Below, in pieces: positions 45,051-53,528 of a DNA stretch of 64,000 nucleotides; the stretch's first letter is position 1, and every line of letters begins with the position of its first letter. The notes under the pieces were generated by a model. It searched no databases. It worked only from the letters and a program-made list of their open reading frames with translations, and was not told the origin of the DNA. Made by a program: the position numbers and the translations under genes. The stretch comes from Sordariomycetes sp. S80-01Y (taxonomy: Eukaryota > Ascomycota > Sordariomycetes), in assembly GCA_037042185.1 (NCBI GenBank), contig JAXQJY010000022.1:806001-870000 (forward strand), written 5' to 3'.

Positions 45051-47171
45051 GATGGTTGCTCTAGTTGTTTCTTGTGTTTGGTATGGAAGGGGTTGGGGCT
45101 TGAGATATTGAGTGTACTTTGGGGTGAGCAGCTCTGATATTTATAGCCAATTTCCTCAACCTTGGATATCACCTGAAGACGCAACACCGCCTCGAGATCT
45201 GGCATATCTTCTTCGCATTTCCGTGCCTTGACGCAGATCTCGCTTCCAGGTCGCACAGACTAGGCAATGGATCGCGTGCGTCTTACTCGGAGCTTCCCTC
45301 AAGGTCGAAAGATGGGCGCATGTGCCGCCTCCTGATCACGGCCCCCAAGTGTCTCTCTCCTACCAGAAACACTCCAAGGTTCCATGAAGTCATGCTGGAG
45401 CCGAATCACGAAGCAAGGCGACGACCCGGTGCCTTGCGTAGGCTGGACTTTGTCCTACCGTGAGATCCGCTACGGCGGTAGCACGTAGACGACTAAAATT
45501 CCCAAACAATCTTGGGTTGGTTTCGTATACTGAATGGAATTCTTCATGAGAATCATACCGGTTGTTCGGAGGATTTGTTCCCGCTATCAGAGACCGGGAA
45601 GTCAAAACAGAACTTCCACGCAACGATCTACACGGCACAGGCTTGGACCCCAGATTGCCTCTTCATGTAGGTCGATATGTCTCCTTCCCGTTACATACAG
45701 TACGTAAGCGGGGCTTATGGTATATCCAATCAATCCCGAGAACTAATGTTGCAGTCACGGCAGATGTTTCGTCAGGTACTGCGCCGCACGTGTCAGCCAG
45801 CCTTATACCCTCTTGGCCACGGATCGTCGTCGCGCAATGCTTTCAGCGCTGCCGACAGACCCGATCCCCCGCGTTCGAGTGTAGGTACGGAAAATGGCCG
45901 AGGGGCGAGAAGGGTAATAAAGACGTTTGGATGGCTGGGCAATCCCCAGGATGATTCGCGCTGCGCCTTCGGAGTCGCTTCGCCGCTATGTTGATCGGCA
46001 TAAAGCCACCCGTTTGAGCCTCGCCCTAGCTCAAAGAAATGTCACTGACTTTTCTATACGAGCCTTGAACCATGATCGCAGCAATGAGAGCACCATCCAA
46101 AATACCTTATGGTTCCAACCAGCTGGAAGAGCAGTGATGGGAAAAGAGGACGACACGGGTATTTCGTCCCTCCTTGACGACACCAAAACCTCGAAGAAAT
46201 CGTACACAGAATGATCATCTTGCATACAAGATCCCTCTAGTTGACACGTTAAAAAGAGAACCCTTATGCACTCAGAGCATCCTCGGACTCCTCGGATTCA
46301 ACGACGGTACGTACCGAGACAAGTCGACCATCGCCATCAAGATGGTACCCCGGGTACCCATTTTTTTTGGTATCATGACCATTGTACGCCTAAGTTCCTC
46401 CGAGTCTTTCTATTTATGGCTATTGAAGGATTGAAGAGGCCGGACAGTGGTTGCGATCTTCACGCTTACCTGCGGCAGGGCTTCTGACTGATACCGCTCC
46501 AGCTGACTTAAGAAACACGTTCAACACTTTCGAACAAAGATTACAGCGATCGGAAAGCCAGCCGGACTTTTACAAAGGCTTATGAAGGTCCAGAGCGTCA
46601 GAGGGCTTGAGCTTCTCACATGAGTACACTTCCATGAGCCATCGTTTCGTTGTCCAGTAACCACATCAGACCTGCCAGCCGAGCTGCAATCCCCAGTAGA
46701 TGACAAACAGATCGAGAGGCCAAACAACCCATTTAGAAGGTTTCCTACCGGATACCTGGCGGATACGGTTTGGTTCATTCGAGATGTAAGGAAGGACTTG
46801 GGTCGCTCGACACAGCACACTTGCACTCCTGAAGCTGTCCTTTGAGCATATTACCATATCGAAGTGTAGTAATGATCTTATCCTACCCTAGGTTGTGTGG
46901 CTTCCATGAGCAAAATCCGAGGTGCTTCTAAGCGCGTGAGACCGCTCAGCTGCGGTTGAAAGAAAAGCGGGGCCTCCCCAAATGAAGTCAGCGAGAGGGT
47001 GCTGGATGGTCACGTGCGATAGACAGTAGACGACGGAAGTGCTATGAAACATCGAACAAGTTTATGGTGGCTTTCTGTGATGTATGTCTATGTTTCTTTG
47101 GACAGTTTCCATTTATAATCTTTCAACCAAAAAAAAGGAACACAAAACTTTCCGATCTCGAAATGAAACAC
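45051..47171. other. 2.1-kb stretch without recognisable gene
   Basis: Only short unrelated reading frames (up to 130 codons) on both strands, with no conserved motifs or matching splice sites. Composition is more even than the GC-rich gap at 13-16 kb. No terminal repeats or transposase-like sequence seen. Confidence 0.45.
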
Positions 47172-48530
47172 TCAGAGGTCGAGCAAAGCCTCAGCGCCGG
47201 GCTCGCTGCAAACGTAAATCACGTCGTGGGCGTTGCTGAAGCCGTTGAACTGGGTAGCCGAGCACTTCGTGTAGGCACCCATGTCCTCAAAGTACAACCA
47301 GTCGCCGACGTCCAGGATCGGGTCAAAGCGGGTGCTCTCGGTGATGCGGTCGATGCCATCGCAGGTAGGACCCCAGACGGAGTACTCAACGCCCTCGCCG
47401 ATCGGTACCGGGTTGGCCGAGGGCATGTTGTACAGCGTCTGGCCGCCAGCGCGGAGGATCTTCGCAACAGGGTTCTGATGGTCGAACATGATGGAAGAGA
47501 AGTTCCCGTAGACGCCGTCGTTGACGTACACCATGTAGCCCTTGCCATCGAGAGTGGGGTCCTCGACAGTGCGGCGGGCGATGACGTTGCAGGCGATGGT
47601 GAAGGCAGACGAAACGTAGTAACGTCCAGGTTCGGCGATGATGTCGACGTTGCTACCAGCGGGGAAATACTCGTTCAAAGCTCCGTCCAAAACGGCAGCC
47701 ATGTCCTCGAAGGAGTCGCCGCAGAACCCTCCACCAACATCGAGGGTGCGCATGTTGTGACCACGCTCACGGCCTTGCTGGAAGACGGTGTGGGCGTCGC
47801 GGACAGCCTTGAGGAAAGCCATCGGGTCAGAGGCGCCGGAGCCCACGTGGAAGCTGACACCAACAACGTTGAGGCCGAGTTCCGTGGCGAGCGAGAGCAG
47901 GCTCTCGGTGGTATCCATTGCCGCGCCAAACTTCATGCTGAGACGGCACAAGCTCGAGGTGTCGTCTGTCATGATACGCAGGAAGAGCTCGGCGCCGGGG
48001 TAGAGCTTGGCAATCTTGTAAAGCTCGTCGGCATTGTCAAAAGTCATCTGCTTGACGCCGACAGACTTGACGAAACGGACGTAGGAGTTTGTCTTGCAGG
48101 GCTGGGCGTAGATGATGCGGTCGGGGCTGGTGCCCATGGAGAGGACCTGCTCGATTTCGGTCTTGGAGGCGCAGTCAAAGCCAGTGCCTAGCTCGGAGAG
48201 GAGCTTGAGGACCTTGGGGTCGGGGTTGCACTTGACGGCGTAGAAAGGCCTGACGCGAGGGAGGTTCTTCTTCCAGCGGAGGTGCTGGCGGTACACGTCG
48301 CCCAGGTCGGCAACGTAGAAGGTGTCCTCCTCGCCGGGGTCGCACATCTCGTGGTCGACGGCCTCGACACGTTTGTGAAGAGCCTCGCCAATCAGCTGCT
48401 TGGGGCTCGGGCGACGGCTGGCGATGTTTTCATGATGAAGCAGGGGCTCCACAAGGGAGGGCCTCTTCATGAATACATGATTATGAGGTTGAACATGGCA
48501 GTTGTCGAGAGCAGCAGTTGCCATTACCAT
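47172..48530 (-). CDS. spe-1: Ornithine decarboxylase
   Basis: A single coding exon of 452 aa (MVMATAALDNCHVQ). The PLP-dependent enzyme makes putrescine, the first step of polyamine synthesis in the cytosol. The PLP lysine is in PFYAVKCNPDP (Lys100). GVSFHVGSGASDP and TLDVGGGFCGDS form the phosphate-binding part, IIAEPGRYYV is the family signature, and the active-site cysteine is in VWGPTCDGIDR. Length fits the family. The frame has a second ATG at codon 3. Fungal ODC is under tight polyamine feedback. Here the 5' leader is long, has no ATG in its predicted exons and carries a separate coding-like frame (described separately), pointing to translational control. Confidence 0.95.
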   Translation of the reverse strand: MVMATAALDNCHVQPHNHVFMKRPSLVEPLLHHENIASRRPSPKQLIGEALHKRVEAVDHEMCDPGEEDTFYVADLGDVYRQHLRWKKNLPRVRPFYAVKCNPDPKVLKLLSELGTGFDCASKTEIEQVLSMGTSPDRIIYAQPCKTNSYVRFVKSVGVKQMTFDNADELYKIAKLYPGAELFLRIMTDDTSSLCRLSMKFGAAMDTTESLLSLATELGLNVVGVSFHVGSGASDPMAFLKAVRDAHTVFQQGRERGHNMRTLDVGGGFCGDSFEDMAAVLDGALNEYFPAGSNVDIIAEPGRYYVSSAFTIACNVIARRTVEDPTLDGKGYMVYVNDGVYGNFSSIMFDHQNPVAKILRAGGQTLYNMPSANPVPIGEGVEYSVWGPTCDGIDRITESTRFDPILDVGDWLYFEDMGAYTKCSATQFNGFSNAHDVIYVCSEPGAEALLDL

Positions 48531-48815
48531 ATCCCTGGTGTTTACGGGGTGTGGGATATGTGTCGTTGCGACGGTTGTTCTGATATTAAATCAGGCAGAG
48601 TGAAGGACTGAACAACAGTGAACAGGCGTTAGGGAGGTCGAAAGCGAAAGCAGACTGTTCCCTCAATGGATTGGCGAGGCCTCCACGACTCTTCCTCGGC
48701 GAGAGGAAGAACCACAGGATTCCTCCTATGCGGCAGCTGACGGTTTTGGGGGATCGGCGGCGGTTGCTGGGGGGTTCGGCCTGCGCCGGAATCGAAGAAC
48801 AGCGTTTCGAGGAGC

Positions 48816-49096
48816 TTAGGCGAGCTCAGCAGCGGCGGGAGGGGGGATGGCGTTGATGATGTGGCTGGTCTTGCGAAGGCTGAAATCGCGGTCACTGACA
48901 AAGGTCACGGCTTGAGGAGCCGTGGTGGGGGCGGTGCCTTTGAGGAGACCAAAGGCAGTCGAGACGAAGGGTTGCTCTGCAGGAAGTGTTAGTCTGGTAC
49001 TGGGCAACGTTAAGGCCGAGGCCTCCAGCATTGTCTCCAAGTGAAGGTTCTGACGGAGAGCCGGGCGGCTGACGTCTGGTACGTACCTGAGCGAAT
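48816..49096 (-). CDS. Candidate AUG-less upstream ORF in the ornithine decarboxylase leader
   Basis: Two exon parts, 49087-49096 and 48816-48976, flank a predicted intron 48977-49086 (GTACGT donor, ACTAAC branch, CTGCAG acceptor). The 56-codon frame reads from ATT (49094-49096), right after an in-frame TGA (49100-49102) and one Ser codon. It continues RSEQPFVSTAFGLLKG, VTFVSDRDFSLRKT and SHIINAIPPPAAAELA, then stops. Its codons end almost always in C, G or T, as in real genes here. No ATG occurs on this strand between 48531 and 49265 except one inside the intron. An ACG at 48921-48923 sits in ideal context (CACCACGG) and is an alternative start. Known precedent: ODC and antizyme-inhibitor mRNAs in several eukaryotes carry AUU-started, polyamine-responsive uORFs. 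Start choice and function are inferred. Confidence 0.6.
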
Positions 49097-50507
49097 TGAT
49101 CAGAGCGGTGAAAGCTGGGTTGAAGCGCTCGAAGCGGCTTGGAACGAGATTGGTGGCCTAGCGGGTGGCTGGGACGGGAGCTGGTAACGATGCTAACGCT
49201 GTGTTCGCACACGCAAGATGGGTTGAAGAGGCAGAAGCTTGATCTTGGTGGGGGGGAGCAGCTTTTTAAAGTTCCTGCAGTGGCCTCTCCTTCCTCGACT
49301 CGACATCGCCGCGATGATTTGCTTGGCGTGCCTGGTACCCACTTCTTCCACGCAGCCAAACACAGTCACACAAAATTTTACCTCTGGGCTCCCATCGCTC
49401 CTTGCGCCGCAAAATCTCTCCGACCCAGGGGGGGCATTTACAGCGATCCGTCCGCTATACGGATGAAGAGCATCTGTGCCCAAACTCCTGAATCTCGCGT
49501 CTACTGACCAACCCACCTCTTCACCGAATCTTTCAGCGGGCAGGGTGAAAAAGCGGTGTCACGCTGTCATCTCTTGCTTCGTCTCGCGTTCGATGCAGCA
49601 CCGCAAAACCCGCATCGTGCATCGAGCGCTGCCCAATCGGCCAGACTCCTCCAGGCAATGTTCCTGAGACTGGAGCCCCCAGAAGCTCCAGCCTTCTTAG
49701 CTCGGGATAGGCCATCGGGAGATCCGTCCGAGGGAAGTTTTCACTGGGGAACCGGCACGTCACTCCTCGACTAAGAGCCGCTTGGCCGCCATGTTCCTGC
49801 GGCTGGCTGCGTGTCTCGATGCTGCCCACCTGCTACCGCGGGTCACTGGCTCACTTCAGCAGCAATTACTATCACGATGCGCAAAGACGCAGATCTGCTC
49901 ATTTACACATGCACTCGATTGACGTTCGCTGTGCAAACTCTGCACTGCTGTCGACAGGCCGTCACACACCCCGTCGCCGTGCGTAAGACCATCCTGCTGA
50001 AACCCACATTTCCATTTCCAGATACGTACTTCATGGCAGTGACGTAAGCGGGGCAATTCCCTCCTTCACCTCACCCAAGTGCTCACGTGACATGGTCTGG
50101 AGGTTGTTGCACGGTGCCTTTCTCCCCAGAACTGAGATACCGTACAGGCAGTAATTAGACCATGGGGGCACGCGCCTACAGCAAGACTCTGGCATGTCCT
50201 CTGCTCTTTAGTCCAGTAATCCAAAGCTCAAGGACTCCGGCTCTGAGAGAGCGAGCACCTCGCCCCTACCCTGGATCAGCTTGGTGTCCGAGGACTCCGC
50301 AGCCAGATGACAGGGCATGTGAGCTAGATGTTGGTTTGTTCTTGCGTTGCTCTGTGGCCTTACTGCCATTGAAAAAAAGGCAGAAAGACGTATCGTATCT
50401 GAACGCGTGGGAGAGTTGGTTCACGAGGGGAGACAGGATTGAGTGGTGTCGTCATCCATGTCCTATATATGTACAAGTGTGATGTATCTACCGTTCACTT
50501 GTCATGT
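49097..50507. other. ODC promoter and intergenic region
   Basis: Next to ODC, the minus strand has an A/T-rich element TTTAAAAAGC (about 49262-49271), followed by a pyrimidine-rich leader-like stretch (CTTCTGCCTCTTCAACCCATC), a plausible core promoter. The rest, up to the 3' end of the cym1 gene, shows no supported gene. Confidence 0.4.
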
Positions 50508-53500
50508 CTATTGCTCTGCCGTGGCCTTGATGTTCATGTCTTTGATGGTCCATTGGCCATCGACCCACGGGGCCTTCTCTCCCAAAAATGCGGTGCGTTC
50601 CTCTCCCTTCTCAACGGCACCAACGAGGTACTTCTGAGCAACCTCCTTGACCTGCTCCTTGCTGACGTCGAGCAGCTGCTCCCTCTTCGTCTGCCTCATG
50701 TCCTCGGTGATGCCAGAAAGGAATTTCGCCATCCCTTCCTGGTTCACGCTCTTCGGCGCATCCACGCTTTGGAAGACGGAGATCTTGGCTTCTTCGAGGT
50801 CGCGGTCGGTCCATTCCTTATCCGTCGCCCAACGACCCGCGTTGCGCATGATGCCCAGCGTATTGACGGGATTCGGGTCGCGGTACGAGTAAAAGCCGAA
50901 CAACCCATCGAGAGCGCGGGAGTAAGCTCCGCCGCCGTAGGCACCTCCCTTCTCCCGAATCTCATGATGCAGGTGCTTGTGCGTGAGTAGTTGAGACAGG
51001 ATCTGAAGGGGCGCGCCATCAGCATGGGTGTAGGACGTGGTGGGCACCGCGAGACCACCATAGTAGACCTGGTATGGAAGGGGGAAGAACGTCTTGCTGT
51101 CCTTGGGCAAGGAAGTTCGCGTCGCCGTTGCGGGCGCCGGGGTGCCCTGCTGCACGCCGCTGAGGAAAGACTGAAGAGACGACGTGTTGGCTTGGGCGCT
51201 CTCTGAGCCGCAGGTGATAGCTGTGCGCATGTTGCCGCTAGAAAGTGCGAAGCTCTGAATCTGCTTCAGTTTGGAGATGACATCTTGAAGCGGGTCGGAT
51301 TCAGGGCGGTTCGCCAGTTGGGTCGTGAGCTTGACCTGCGACAGGCCACCTATCTGTTGCCTAAGCCAAGCGCTGCGGGTAAGACTCGACTCGGCGTAAC
51401 CCATCGCAAATCGATGTCCAGATGAGGCAATGTCGTTGACGATGCCATCGGCTGATGCTTGTAGCAGTTGGCGAATGCGCAAGGCAGCTTCAGGGCTGTC
51501 GAAGTTGGTTTCCACTACTAGCTTCCGCAGCAATTCGTACATGTCCGGAACATTGCGGTCCAGAGCCATGCCGGTAAAGATGATACCCTCACTGGATTGC
51601 TGGAAGTCGGTTGGTGAGGGTGTAGAGTGGTAGCCAACCGAGACTCCGCCTGTCTTCAATTTGATGAGATCTTCTAGCTGCTCCATCGACATGTCCTTGG
51701 TGCCCAGGCGCATGATACTATCGGTGAACAGCGGGATGAGTTCACGAAGATCGTCTGGCAGATTCTCGAGGGTGTTGATGGCGCGGAAGTAGGTGAGACC
51801 GTTCGTGGGTGCTTCGTGCCATTGTGCCGGCACGCCACCGACTTTGTCGTCACGGATCGCTACTCCATCCTTGGATCGAGGGATGTCTTTCACATAGACT
51901 GTGGGCAAGCAGCTCAAATCCTCCGTGTTGGTCTTATTCTGCTCCACCAACAGATCGGCTTCTTGCTTTTCAAACTGCTCGCGAGCCTTCTCAGGGCTGC
52001 CTGCCTTCTGCTCTGCGGCCTTAATCATTGCAGACAACCTCTGCTGCTCCTCCTGAACAAGCTCCTCGCCGTAGGTGGTGGATGGAGCCATCGTGAAGGT
52101 CAGGGTGTTGTCGTTCAGTAGGTACTTGTCAATCAAGCCTTCGAGGTAGTTGCCCTGGTCGAGCTTTTCATGGAAGCGGGCAAGCGTGTCCTTCCAAGAA
52201 AGGGAGTCAAATGGATCGACACCATTGAACCACTTGGGCTTTAGACGGTTGAGCATCGAGAAGCCAAAGTTGGCGGTTTTGTGCTTCAACGATAGCTCCA
52301 ACTGATGCAGCGAGCCGTCAATTTTTGTCTTGTCGAACCCCTTGTCCCGCGCCTCCTTGAGGATTTCCTGCACCCGAGCCTTGAGCTTGGGCACGTCCGC
52401 CTCTTGTACGCCTGTCAACCCAATGGAGAAGATCCCACGCTTCTGTCCGCTATCGTAGCCTGCGTTGGGACTGTAATCGGCGCCCATGCCGGTCTCAATC
52501 AGGCCGCGGTAGAGTGGTGATCCATACCCATCCATAAGCAAGGTCGACAGCAAGGCCATCGAAAAGGACTCCAGAACATCTGTTGTATCACCAATGACCC
52601 AAGAGACTGAAGTCTTGTACTGGCGGTCTGCATCAACCATGGGGTCAACGGGCCCTTTGAGTGTCACCTCCTTCGGACCCTGCAGTTCCATTGGCTCGTG
52701 TATCTTGCGATCCGCGGCGATTTTCTCGAATGCTTGTAACCTCGCATCGATATCCTGCAAATGATCCGCCAATGGCATGTCACCATATGTGAAGACCTTC
52801 GCGTTGCTTGGGTGGTAGTGTTCGGCGTGAAATTGCTTTAGCTGCTCGTACGTCAAGTCCGTGATTTTCTGCGGATCGCCGCCCGAGTTGTTGATGTCAG
52901 GGAAGATGTGATCCTGGAACCGAATGTAGTACAGGTACCCAGCGTCCGACATCTGCCCCTTCATCTCGTTGTACACGACGCCCTTAAACACCAGCTTCTT
53001 GCCCTCCTTGTCCTTGGCCAAAGGGTTCTCGGGTCCGATGCGCCATCCTTCCTGAGTGAAGTCGGACTGCTTCAGCAGTGGCGTCAGGGTCGAGTCGAGG
53101 TATACAGACATTAGGTTCTTGAAGTCTTGAGCGTTGGTTGTCGCGAAGGGGTAGAACGTGTGGTCGGAAGCAGTAAATGCGTTCATGAAGTTCGAGAGTG
53201 TTCGAGGGAGCATCTTGAAGAAGGGGTCTCTGATGGGGTACTTTTCGCTGCCGCAAAGGGTGGTGTGTTCCAAAATGTGCGGGATCCCCGTGTCGTCTGG
53301 CGGATTCGTCTTGAAGCCGATGGAGAAGACATTGTTGCTGTCGTCGCGAGCGATGTGCAGGTAGTCGGCGCCAGTCTTGTCGTGTTGCAGGTGAAGAGCC
53401 GTCAGCTCCAGCTCAGGGACATGCTTGGAGCGCACGAGGGTGAAGCCATGAAGCTTCTCGCCGACCTTGGGGAAGAGGCCGAGGTCGGTGACAGCTTTGC

Positions 53501-53528
53501 GGGCTGCCTTGGCCGCGTTGCCGAGCAT
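50508..53528 (-). CDS. cym1: Mitochondrial presequence protease, M16C (Cym1/PreP)
   Basis: A single-exon gene. I start at ATG 53528 ([19 protein letters not shown]), giving 1006 aa; the frame upstream is leader. The inverted zinc motif HxxEH is HILEH (residues 84-88). The distal ligand Glu lies in a conserved [11 protein letters not shown] segment about residue 200. [13 protein letters not shown] and [11 protein letters not shown] are typical PreP sequences. The C-terminal half holds the paired Arg-Tyr region ([11 protein letters not shown], then [10 protein letters not shown]). The protease degrades cleaved presequences and other short peptides in the mitochondrial matrix. The amphipathic, basic N-terminus fits import. 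Size is as expected (about 990-1030 aa). It is divergent from the taxilin gene. Confidence 0.94.

Follow-up and report, generated by a model that had tools for sequence, protein, structure and literature searches.

Conserved upstream open reading frames (uORFs) of ornithine decarboxylase (ODC) homologues, from yeast to mammals, are said to have been reported by Ivanov, Loughran and Atkins in 2008 (PNAS). AUU is the usual, albeit not the sole, start codon of the described members of this group. The AZIN1 leader contains a uORF whose AUU start precedes a PPW motif by about 30 codons; high polyamine levels hinder eIF5A and cause a stall, and the resulting queue promotes initiation at the AUU and switches off the main ORF (PMC9082881, PMC11550727, PMC11058473). 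The HOL1 uORF of budding yeast responds to polyamines via an elongation/termination factor, with a stall at PS-stop before a transporter gene (PMC11550727). ATF4 combines a near-cognate CUG with a conserved stem-loop, SL3, at a critical spacing, and involves queueing (PMC11058473). Finally, the Neurospora cpc-1 leader carries non-AUG starts, including ACG, that are deeply conserved in Pezizomycotina (PMC5487733).

Here we describe a uORF in the leader of an ODC gene on the minus strand of the window, i.e. the whole stretch of 64,000 nucleotides that was analysed. The product of the main ORF matches human ODC structures at E about 1e-119, and no other match to the N-terminal ODC domain was reported from the 30.9 Mb genome, which is taken to be fungal on the strength of its genes and their relatives. 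The features of the locus are as follows.

47172..48530, minus strand: main ORF, ornithine decarboxylase (ODC), 452 aa, with both Pfam ODC domains
50508-53528, minus strand: M16C/PreP-type peptidase gene (Pfam), upstream of ODC
49261..49270, minus strand: TATA-like TTTAAAAAGC, assigned from sequence only
49086-48977, minus strand: predicted leader intron of 110 nt, with the sequence signals GTACGT at its start, CTAAC near its end and CAG at its end
49029..49031, minus strand: the single ATG of the intron, in frame with the uORF
49094..49096, minus strand: AUU, the start codon first proposed, with T at −3 and C at +4
48816..48923, minus strand: uORF of 35 codons from ACG plus TAA, peptide TAPQAVTFVSDRDFSLRKTSHIINAIPPPAAAELA, the first residue being Met if initiator tRNA starts translation

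Antisense to ODC runs an ATG-started ORF of 375 codons (47064-48191, plus strand), which probably results from codon bias. Elsewhere in the genome lies an ODC antizyme gene (G000:C10:2768050-2768442; L126, L127), seen as a match in two pieces, one of which contains an internal TAG; antizymes are produced by frameshifting.

The TATA-like element suggests a transcription start some tens of bases downstream of it. The leader from 49265 to 48531, 625 nt long when spliced, contains 0 ATG, compared to a mean of 4.2 in dinucleotide shuffles of the same leader (n = 2000), 0.4% of which had none. The preliminary description had pointed out that AUG is absent outside the intron where several would be expected by chance, and this is borne out. 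The frame that it had described is likewise present: a TGA is followed by one codon and by ATT at 49096-49094, the reading continues unshifted past the intron, and after 56 codons it closes with a TAA ending at 48816. Its codon choice had been called gene-like, in agreement with codon log-odds referenced to two genes of the window, ODC and the M16 peptidase. From the ACG onward, the 35 codons score 9.7 (shifted frames: −2.4 and 2.7), a value reached by 1.7% of leader segments of 105 nt, and the 21 codons between the AUU and the ACG score 3.4, which is positive but smaller per codon. The 3′ end of the intron sits 53 nt upstream of the ACG, and 285 nt separate the uORF stop from the ODC ATG. An Rfam search of positions 48500-49300 gave no match at E <= 1.

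Conservation of the peptide across species was shown by successive protein searches, in which the hits of each round widened the next (4, 12 and 28 proteins, the window's own P0001 counted). The 27 other database proteins comprise one labelled Klebsiella, eight without organism and 18 that carry the names of fungi, namely Drechmeria, Fusarium, Epichloe, Clonostachys, Hypoxylon, Canariomyces, Podospora, Dichotomopilus, Schizothecium, Cladorrhinum, Colletotrichum, Verticillium (two), Monilinia, Botrytis, Sclerotinia, Cadophora and Lachnellula. A lineage look-up of six matches returned Sordariomycetes (four) and Leotiomycetes (two); with the placement of the remainder, the range extends from Hypocreales, Glomerellales, Sordariales and Xylariales to Helotiales. 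The coding uORF without AUG that had been postulated for the ODC leader is supported, its peptide being shared by relatives from Sordariomycetes to Leotiomycetes, and the polyamine-sensing kind suggested for it is plausible. Neither the hairpins described below nor the invariant proline motif figured in the preliminary description. The 28 rows share the core T-A-x-x-A-V-x-[FL]-V-S-D-Q-D-[FY]-S-L-R-K-T-x-H-I-I-N-x-x-P-P-P, with substitutions at several positions; strong residue conservation spans about 28 residues, and the N termini ahead of the core are mostly dissimilar between rows. It should be noted that the relatives were compared as protein only, the place of their copies before ODC being assumed, and that leaders open to read-through by a gene caller are over-represented in the database sample. 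As related species are non-independent, no probability is claimed on row counts here or below.

The database entries themselves merit a remark. The same peptide is filed as hypothetical, predicted, uncharacterized or unnamed protein in P0002, P0005, P0007-P0011, P0015-P0019, P0021 and P0024-P0028, with differing N termini that are probably gene-caller artefacts. P0006, a peptide of the fungal type filed under Klebsiella pneumoniae on a 253-base contig, looks like contamination. Searches with the peptide alignment returned 87 pattern stretches in viral contigs and 75 stretches in genome contigs, with no relative in either set; ODC searches gave no relative in viral contigs and nine stretches, again with no relative, in genome contigs.

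The part of the frame that is kept as peptide begins at the ACG. Four elements at and around this codon are considered in the following.

48936..48956, minus strand: hairpin H1, GCCUUUG-loop-CAAAGGC, ending 12 nt before the ACG; extended 9-bp stem 48935-48957
48921..48923, minus strand: ACG, putative start codon, context CACC-ACG-G, with A at −3 and G at +4
48906..48924, minus strand: hairpin H2, CACGGCU-loop-AGCCGUG, with the ACG in its 5′ arm
48837..48845, minus strand: Pro-Pro-Pro (PPP), uORF codons 27-29, putative eIF5A-dependent stall site

Of six near-cognate codons in this frame, a list that omits AAG and AGG, the ACG at 48923 has the best context. Its position is occupied by Thr in 26/26 usable rows and the next by Ala, also in 26/26, which places a G at +4; these counts are partly built in, since row selection demanded a TA..A or A..A core, and the same T and A columns stand at 90% or more in the unfiltered alignment of 28 rows. 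P0022, which begins past the ACG codon, and P0024, which has a five-residue gap after Thr, were left out, and counts of 24 and 26 rows include P0001. The residue before Thr is T (13 rows), N (4), S (4), I (3), A (1) or V (1). Its codon can begin with a purine in all 26 rows and certainly does so in 22 (with A in 20), compared to a possible purine in 15 and 16 rows for the two columns further upstream. Still, the purine signal is not unique to the column before Thr, as a purine is possible in 24/26 rows at column −4, beside H1, and in 26/26 at H1's Lys and Gly/Ala columns. Unlike residues sharing a possible first-base purine before an invariant Thr-Ala have the appearance of a start-codon context read as protein, although this is not a proof. 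Met is absent from residue −11 through the C terminus in 26/26 rows. We infer that the uORF starts at ACG 48923, the codon itself being observed in this genome alone and represented by Thr in the relatives. The ACG, previously mentioned as an alternative start, is thereby favoured on account of the Thr and Ala columns and its Kozak-like flank.

The second fixed point is the proline motif. PPP is present in 28/28 aligned rows, lies at the same distance from Thr with no indel in 26/26, and is followed by the stop after four to eight codons in 25/26. From the ACG to a P site stalled at codon 28 or 29, the distance is 81-84 nt. By analogy to AZIN1, the leader probably contains a conserved, ACG-started uORF that acts in cis and stalls on polyproline, so lowering ODC synthesis at high polyamine levels. 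Most scanning ribosomes would bypass the ACG and reach the ODC AUG, and a minority would initiate at the ACG and produce the 35-codon peptide. PPP would require hypusinated eIF5A; if high polyamines hinder eIF5A, as in AZIN1, a pause at codons 27-29 would follow. Scanning ribosomes might then queue back by about 80-87 nt, placing one of them over the ACG, a distance near three footprints of 30 nt (PMC11058473). H1 could refold right behind the ribosome seated at the ACG and, as a matter of conjecture, may hold it in place. With initiation at the ACG raised, the leader would be blocked and ODC synthesis would fall, closing a feedback loop. Given the antizyme gene in this genome, translational control of ODC would not be strictly needed.

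Compared to AZIN1, the locus shares an ODC-family leader, a putative non-AUG start, a conserved peptide and a proline-rich stall motif near the terminus; the start-to-stall distance of about 30 codons in AZIN1 corresponds to PPP at codons 27-29 if Thr marks the start. The likeness drawn here is one of layout. The fungal uORF would start with ACG rather than AUU, lies before ODC itself, has PPP in place of PPW (the residue after PPP is W in 0/26 rows) and is preceded by a hairpin at fixed distance from the start. With the uORFs of ODC homologues, it has in common the position in an ODC-family leader, observed in this genome, a conserved peptide (28 proteins including its own) and perhaps a conserved non-AUG start, as the Thr in 26/26 rows with its Kozak-like flanks points to ACG. 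The start is probably not AUU, but as AUU is the main and not the sole start in that group, membership is still possible. A polyamine response via an elongation or termination factor is the proposed likeness to HOL1, where PS stands at the stop; the fungal PPP lies four to eight codons earlier in 25/26 rows, and 0/28 C termini end in PS. ATF4 resembles the proposed arrangement in its near-cognate start with a conserved stem-loop at set spacing and in queueing, but SL3 is found downstream of the start whereas H1 lies upstream and H2 contains it. A deeply conserved non-AUG start in a Pezizomycotina leader would be shared with cpc-1, where such starts, one of them an ACG, extend the main protein; the fungal ODC uORF would encode a separate short peptide. 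The arginine attenuator peptide and the MAGDIS uORFs of AdoMetDC are AUG-started, whereas the ODC uORF has no AUG in the spliced leader and would acquire one only via intron retention.

Upstream of the ACG, conservation takes a different form. H1, formed in this window by the bases GCCTTTGGTCTCCTCAAAGGC, folds with seven pairs at probability 0.99-1.0 in the folded leader and with −10.4 kcal/mol alone. The 126-nt stretch as a whole folds with z −2.05 relative to shuffles, 6/200 of which are as good. As this is only modestly beyond shuffles, it is the conservation in different frames, and not the energy, that speaks for H1. Back-translation showed 24/24 sufficiently long rows to be compatible with GCCTTTGGT-N3-6-CAAAGGC, with loops of 5, 7 or 8 nt and a distance to the ACG of always 12-13 nt; P0013 and P0014 end inside the 5′ arm and were left unscored, and the upstream part of P0024, typed by hand, fits. 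Among control 14-mers from the window (n = 20000), seven were compatible at any spacing and one at 12-13 nt, numbers that are possibly too high because the controls were drawn from all six frames including the H1 site. Read as protein, the region is AFGxxKG (17 rows), PLVxSKA (4), PLVxxKG (2) or PLVxKG (1), two rows being cut short, and the window's own third frame over H1 reads RLPLVSSKA. The same bases are thus kept in shifting frames, and the target of selection just 5′ of the ACG appears to be RNA or DNA, not a peptide. The pattern occurs at three places in the 30.9 Mb genome including the uORF leader; other GCCTTTG...CAAAGGC repeats, with different loops, are located at G000:C7:716280-716303 (L123) and G000:C13:1703477-1703500 (L124). 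A hairpin-only scan of viral contigs yielded at least 120 stretches, which were treated as chance.

Scanning ribosomes are reported to slide backward (PMC8593136), which makes a latch at the rear a conceivable role for H1. Conversely, the hairpins described as aiding weak starts lie downstream of the start (PMC8593136, PMC11058473), and the upstream position of H1 counts against the explanation preferred here. H2 has pairing probabilities of 0.93-1.0 in the leader and −10.0 kcal/mol alone, and the codon closing its 3′ arm encodes V/A/E/G in 26/26 rows, all with G as first base. It is less secure than H1, and its role is a conjecture. A more elaborate proposal would join these elements: the ACG in the arm of H2, 12-13 nt past the near-invariant H1, would form a conserved module for non-AUG initiation in which H1 serves as a latch at the back of the scanning ribosome and polyamines adjust initiation via RNA folding in addition to the polyproline stall. 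We regard this extension as rather unlikely; a literature search for a start module with a rear hairpin found none among the matches listed.

Alternatively, H1 could be a palindrome at the DNA level, such as a transcription-factor site, with the uORF functioning without it. The arm sequence itself is kept, as expected for a binding site, and the relatives were seen only as proteins, but the loop varies (5, 7, 8 nt) at a steady distance of 12-13 nt to the ACG. As this combination fits better with an RNA acting on the start codon, the palindrome appears unlikely, if somewhat less so than the alternatives that follow. Should the product be a microprotein acting in trans, its place before ODC would be secondary. 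The strong conservation of about 28 residues would suit such a role, whereas a polyproline near the terminus, an apparent non-AUG start and the leader of a key enzyme suit regulation in cis better; moreover, the peptide has no Pfam match, and a search of the 30.9 Mb genome with it gave a single match, ahead of ODC, and no second copy. A function in trans is therefore considered improbable.

Intron retention would provide another route to initiation. An RNA that keeps the intron would carry the in-frame AUG at 49031 and hence a 71-codon, AUG-started version of the uORF, so that regulated retention could supply the start and the uORF of the spliced mRNA would be absent or weak. Many database entries do start at a Met upstream of H1; those N termini, however, are largely dissimilar and may reflect how gene callers chose a start. 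With no Met conserved and the signature of a start context located at the ACG, retention has little probability. Initiation at AUU 49096, the start of the preliminary description, is the least probable of all: although no stop interrupts the frame from that point, its 21 leading codons score mildly positive and ODC-homologue uORFs usually start with AUU, the context is poor, the codon lies outside the conserved part, the following codons up to the ACG are not kept as peptide (the only invariants before the core in 26/26 rows are Thr and Lys −6, here AAA within H1), and the retention of H1 across differing frames is a strong argument against it. A uORF starting at the ACG would have the predicted intron before it, and the earlier view of a 56-codon uORF spanning the intron is most likely wrong.

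As for precedent, the fungal ODC uORF is not described in the excerpts consulted of PMC5487733, PMC11550727, PMC9082881, PMC5009743, PMC3982577, PMC11506843, PMC4505036, PMC9025450, PMC11058473, PMC3432380 and PMC8593136, nor among the matches listed in a full-text literature search, and a search for the peptide's own residues found no paper. Novelty is provisional in so far as the fungal group may already figure in the work of Ivanov and co-workers of 2008. If the ACG-started, polyproline-stalling uORF is true, the lowering of the first enzyme of the pathway by polyamines in filamentous fungi could be tested by a few codon changes. The leader would then hold a natural, deeply conserved ACG start with fixed context, hairpin spacing and stall distance, and would be a useful case for how near-cognate codons get chosen.
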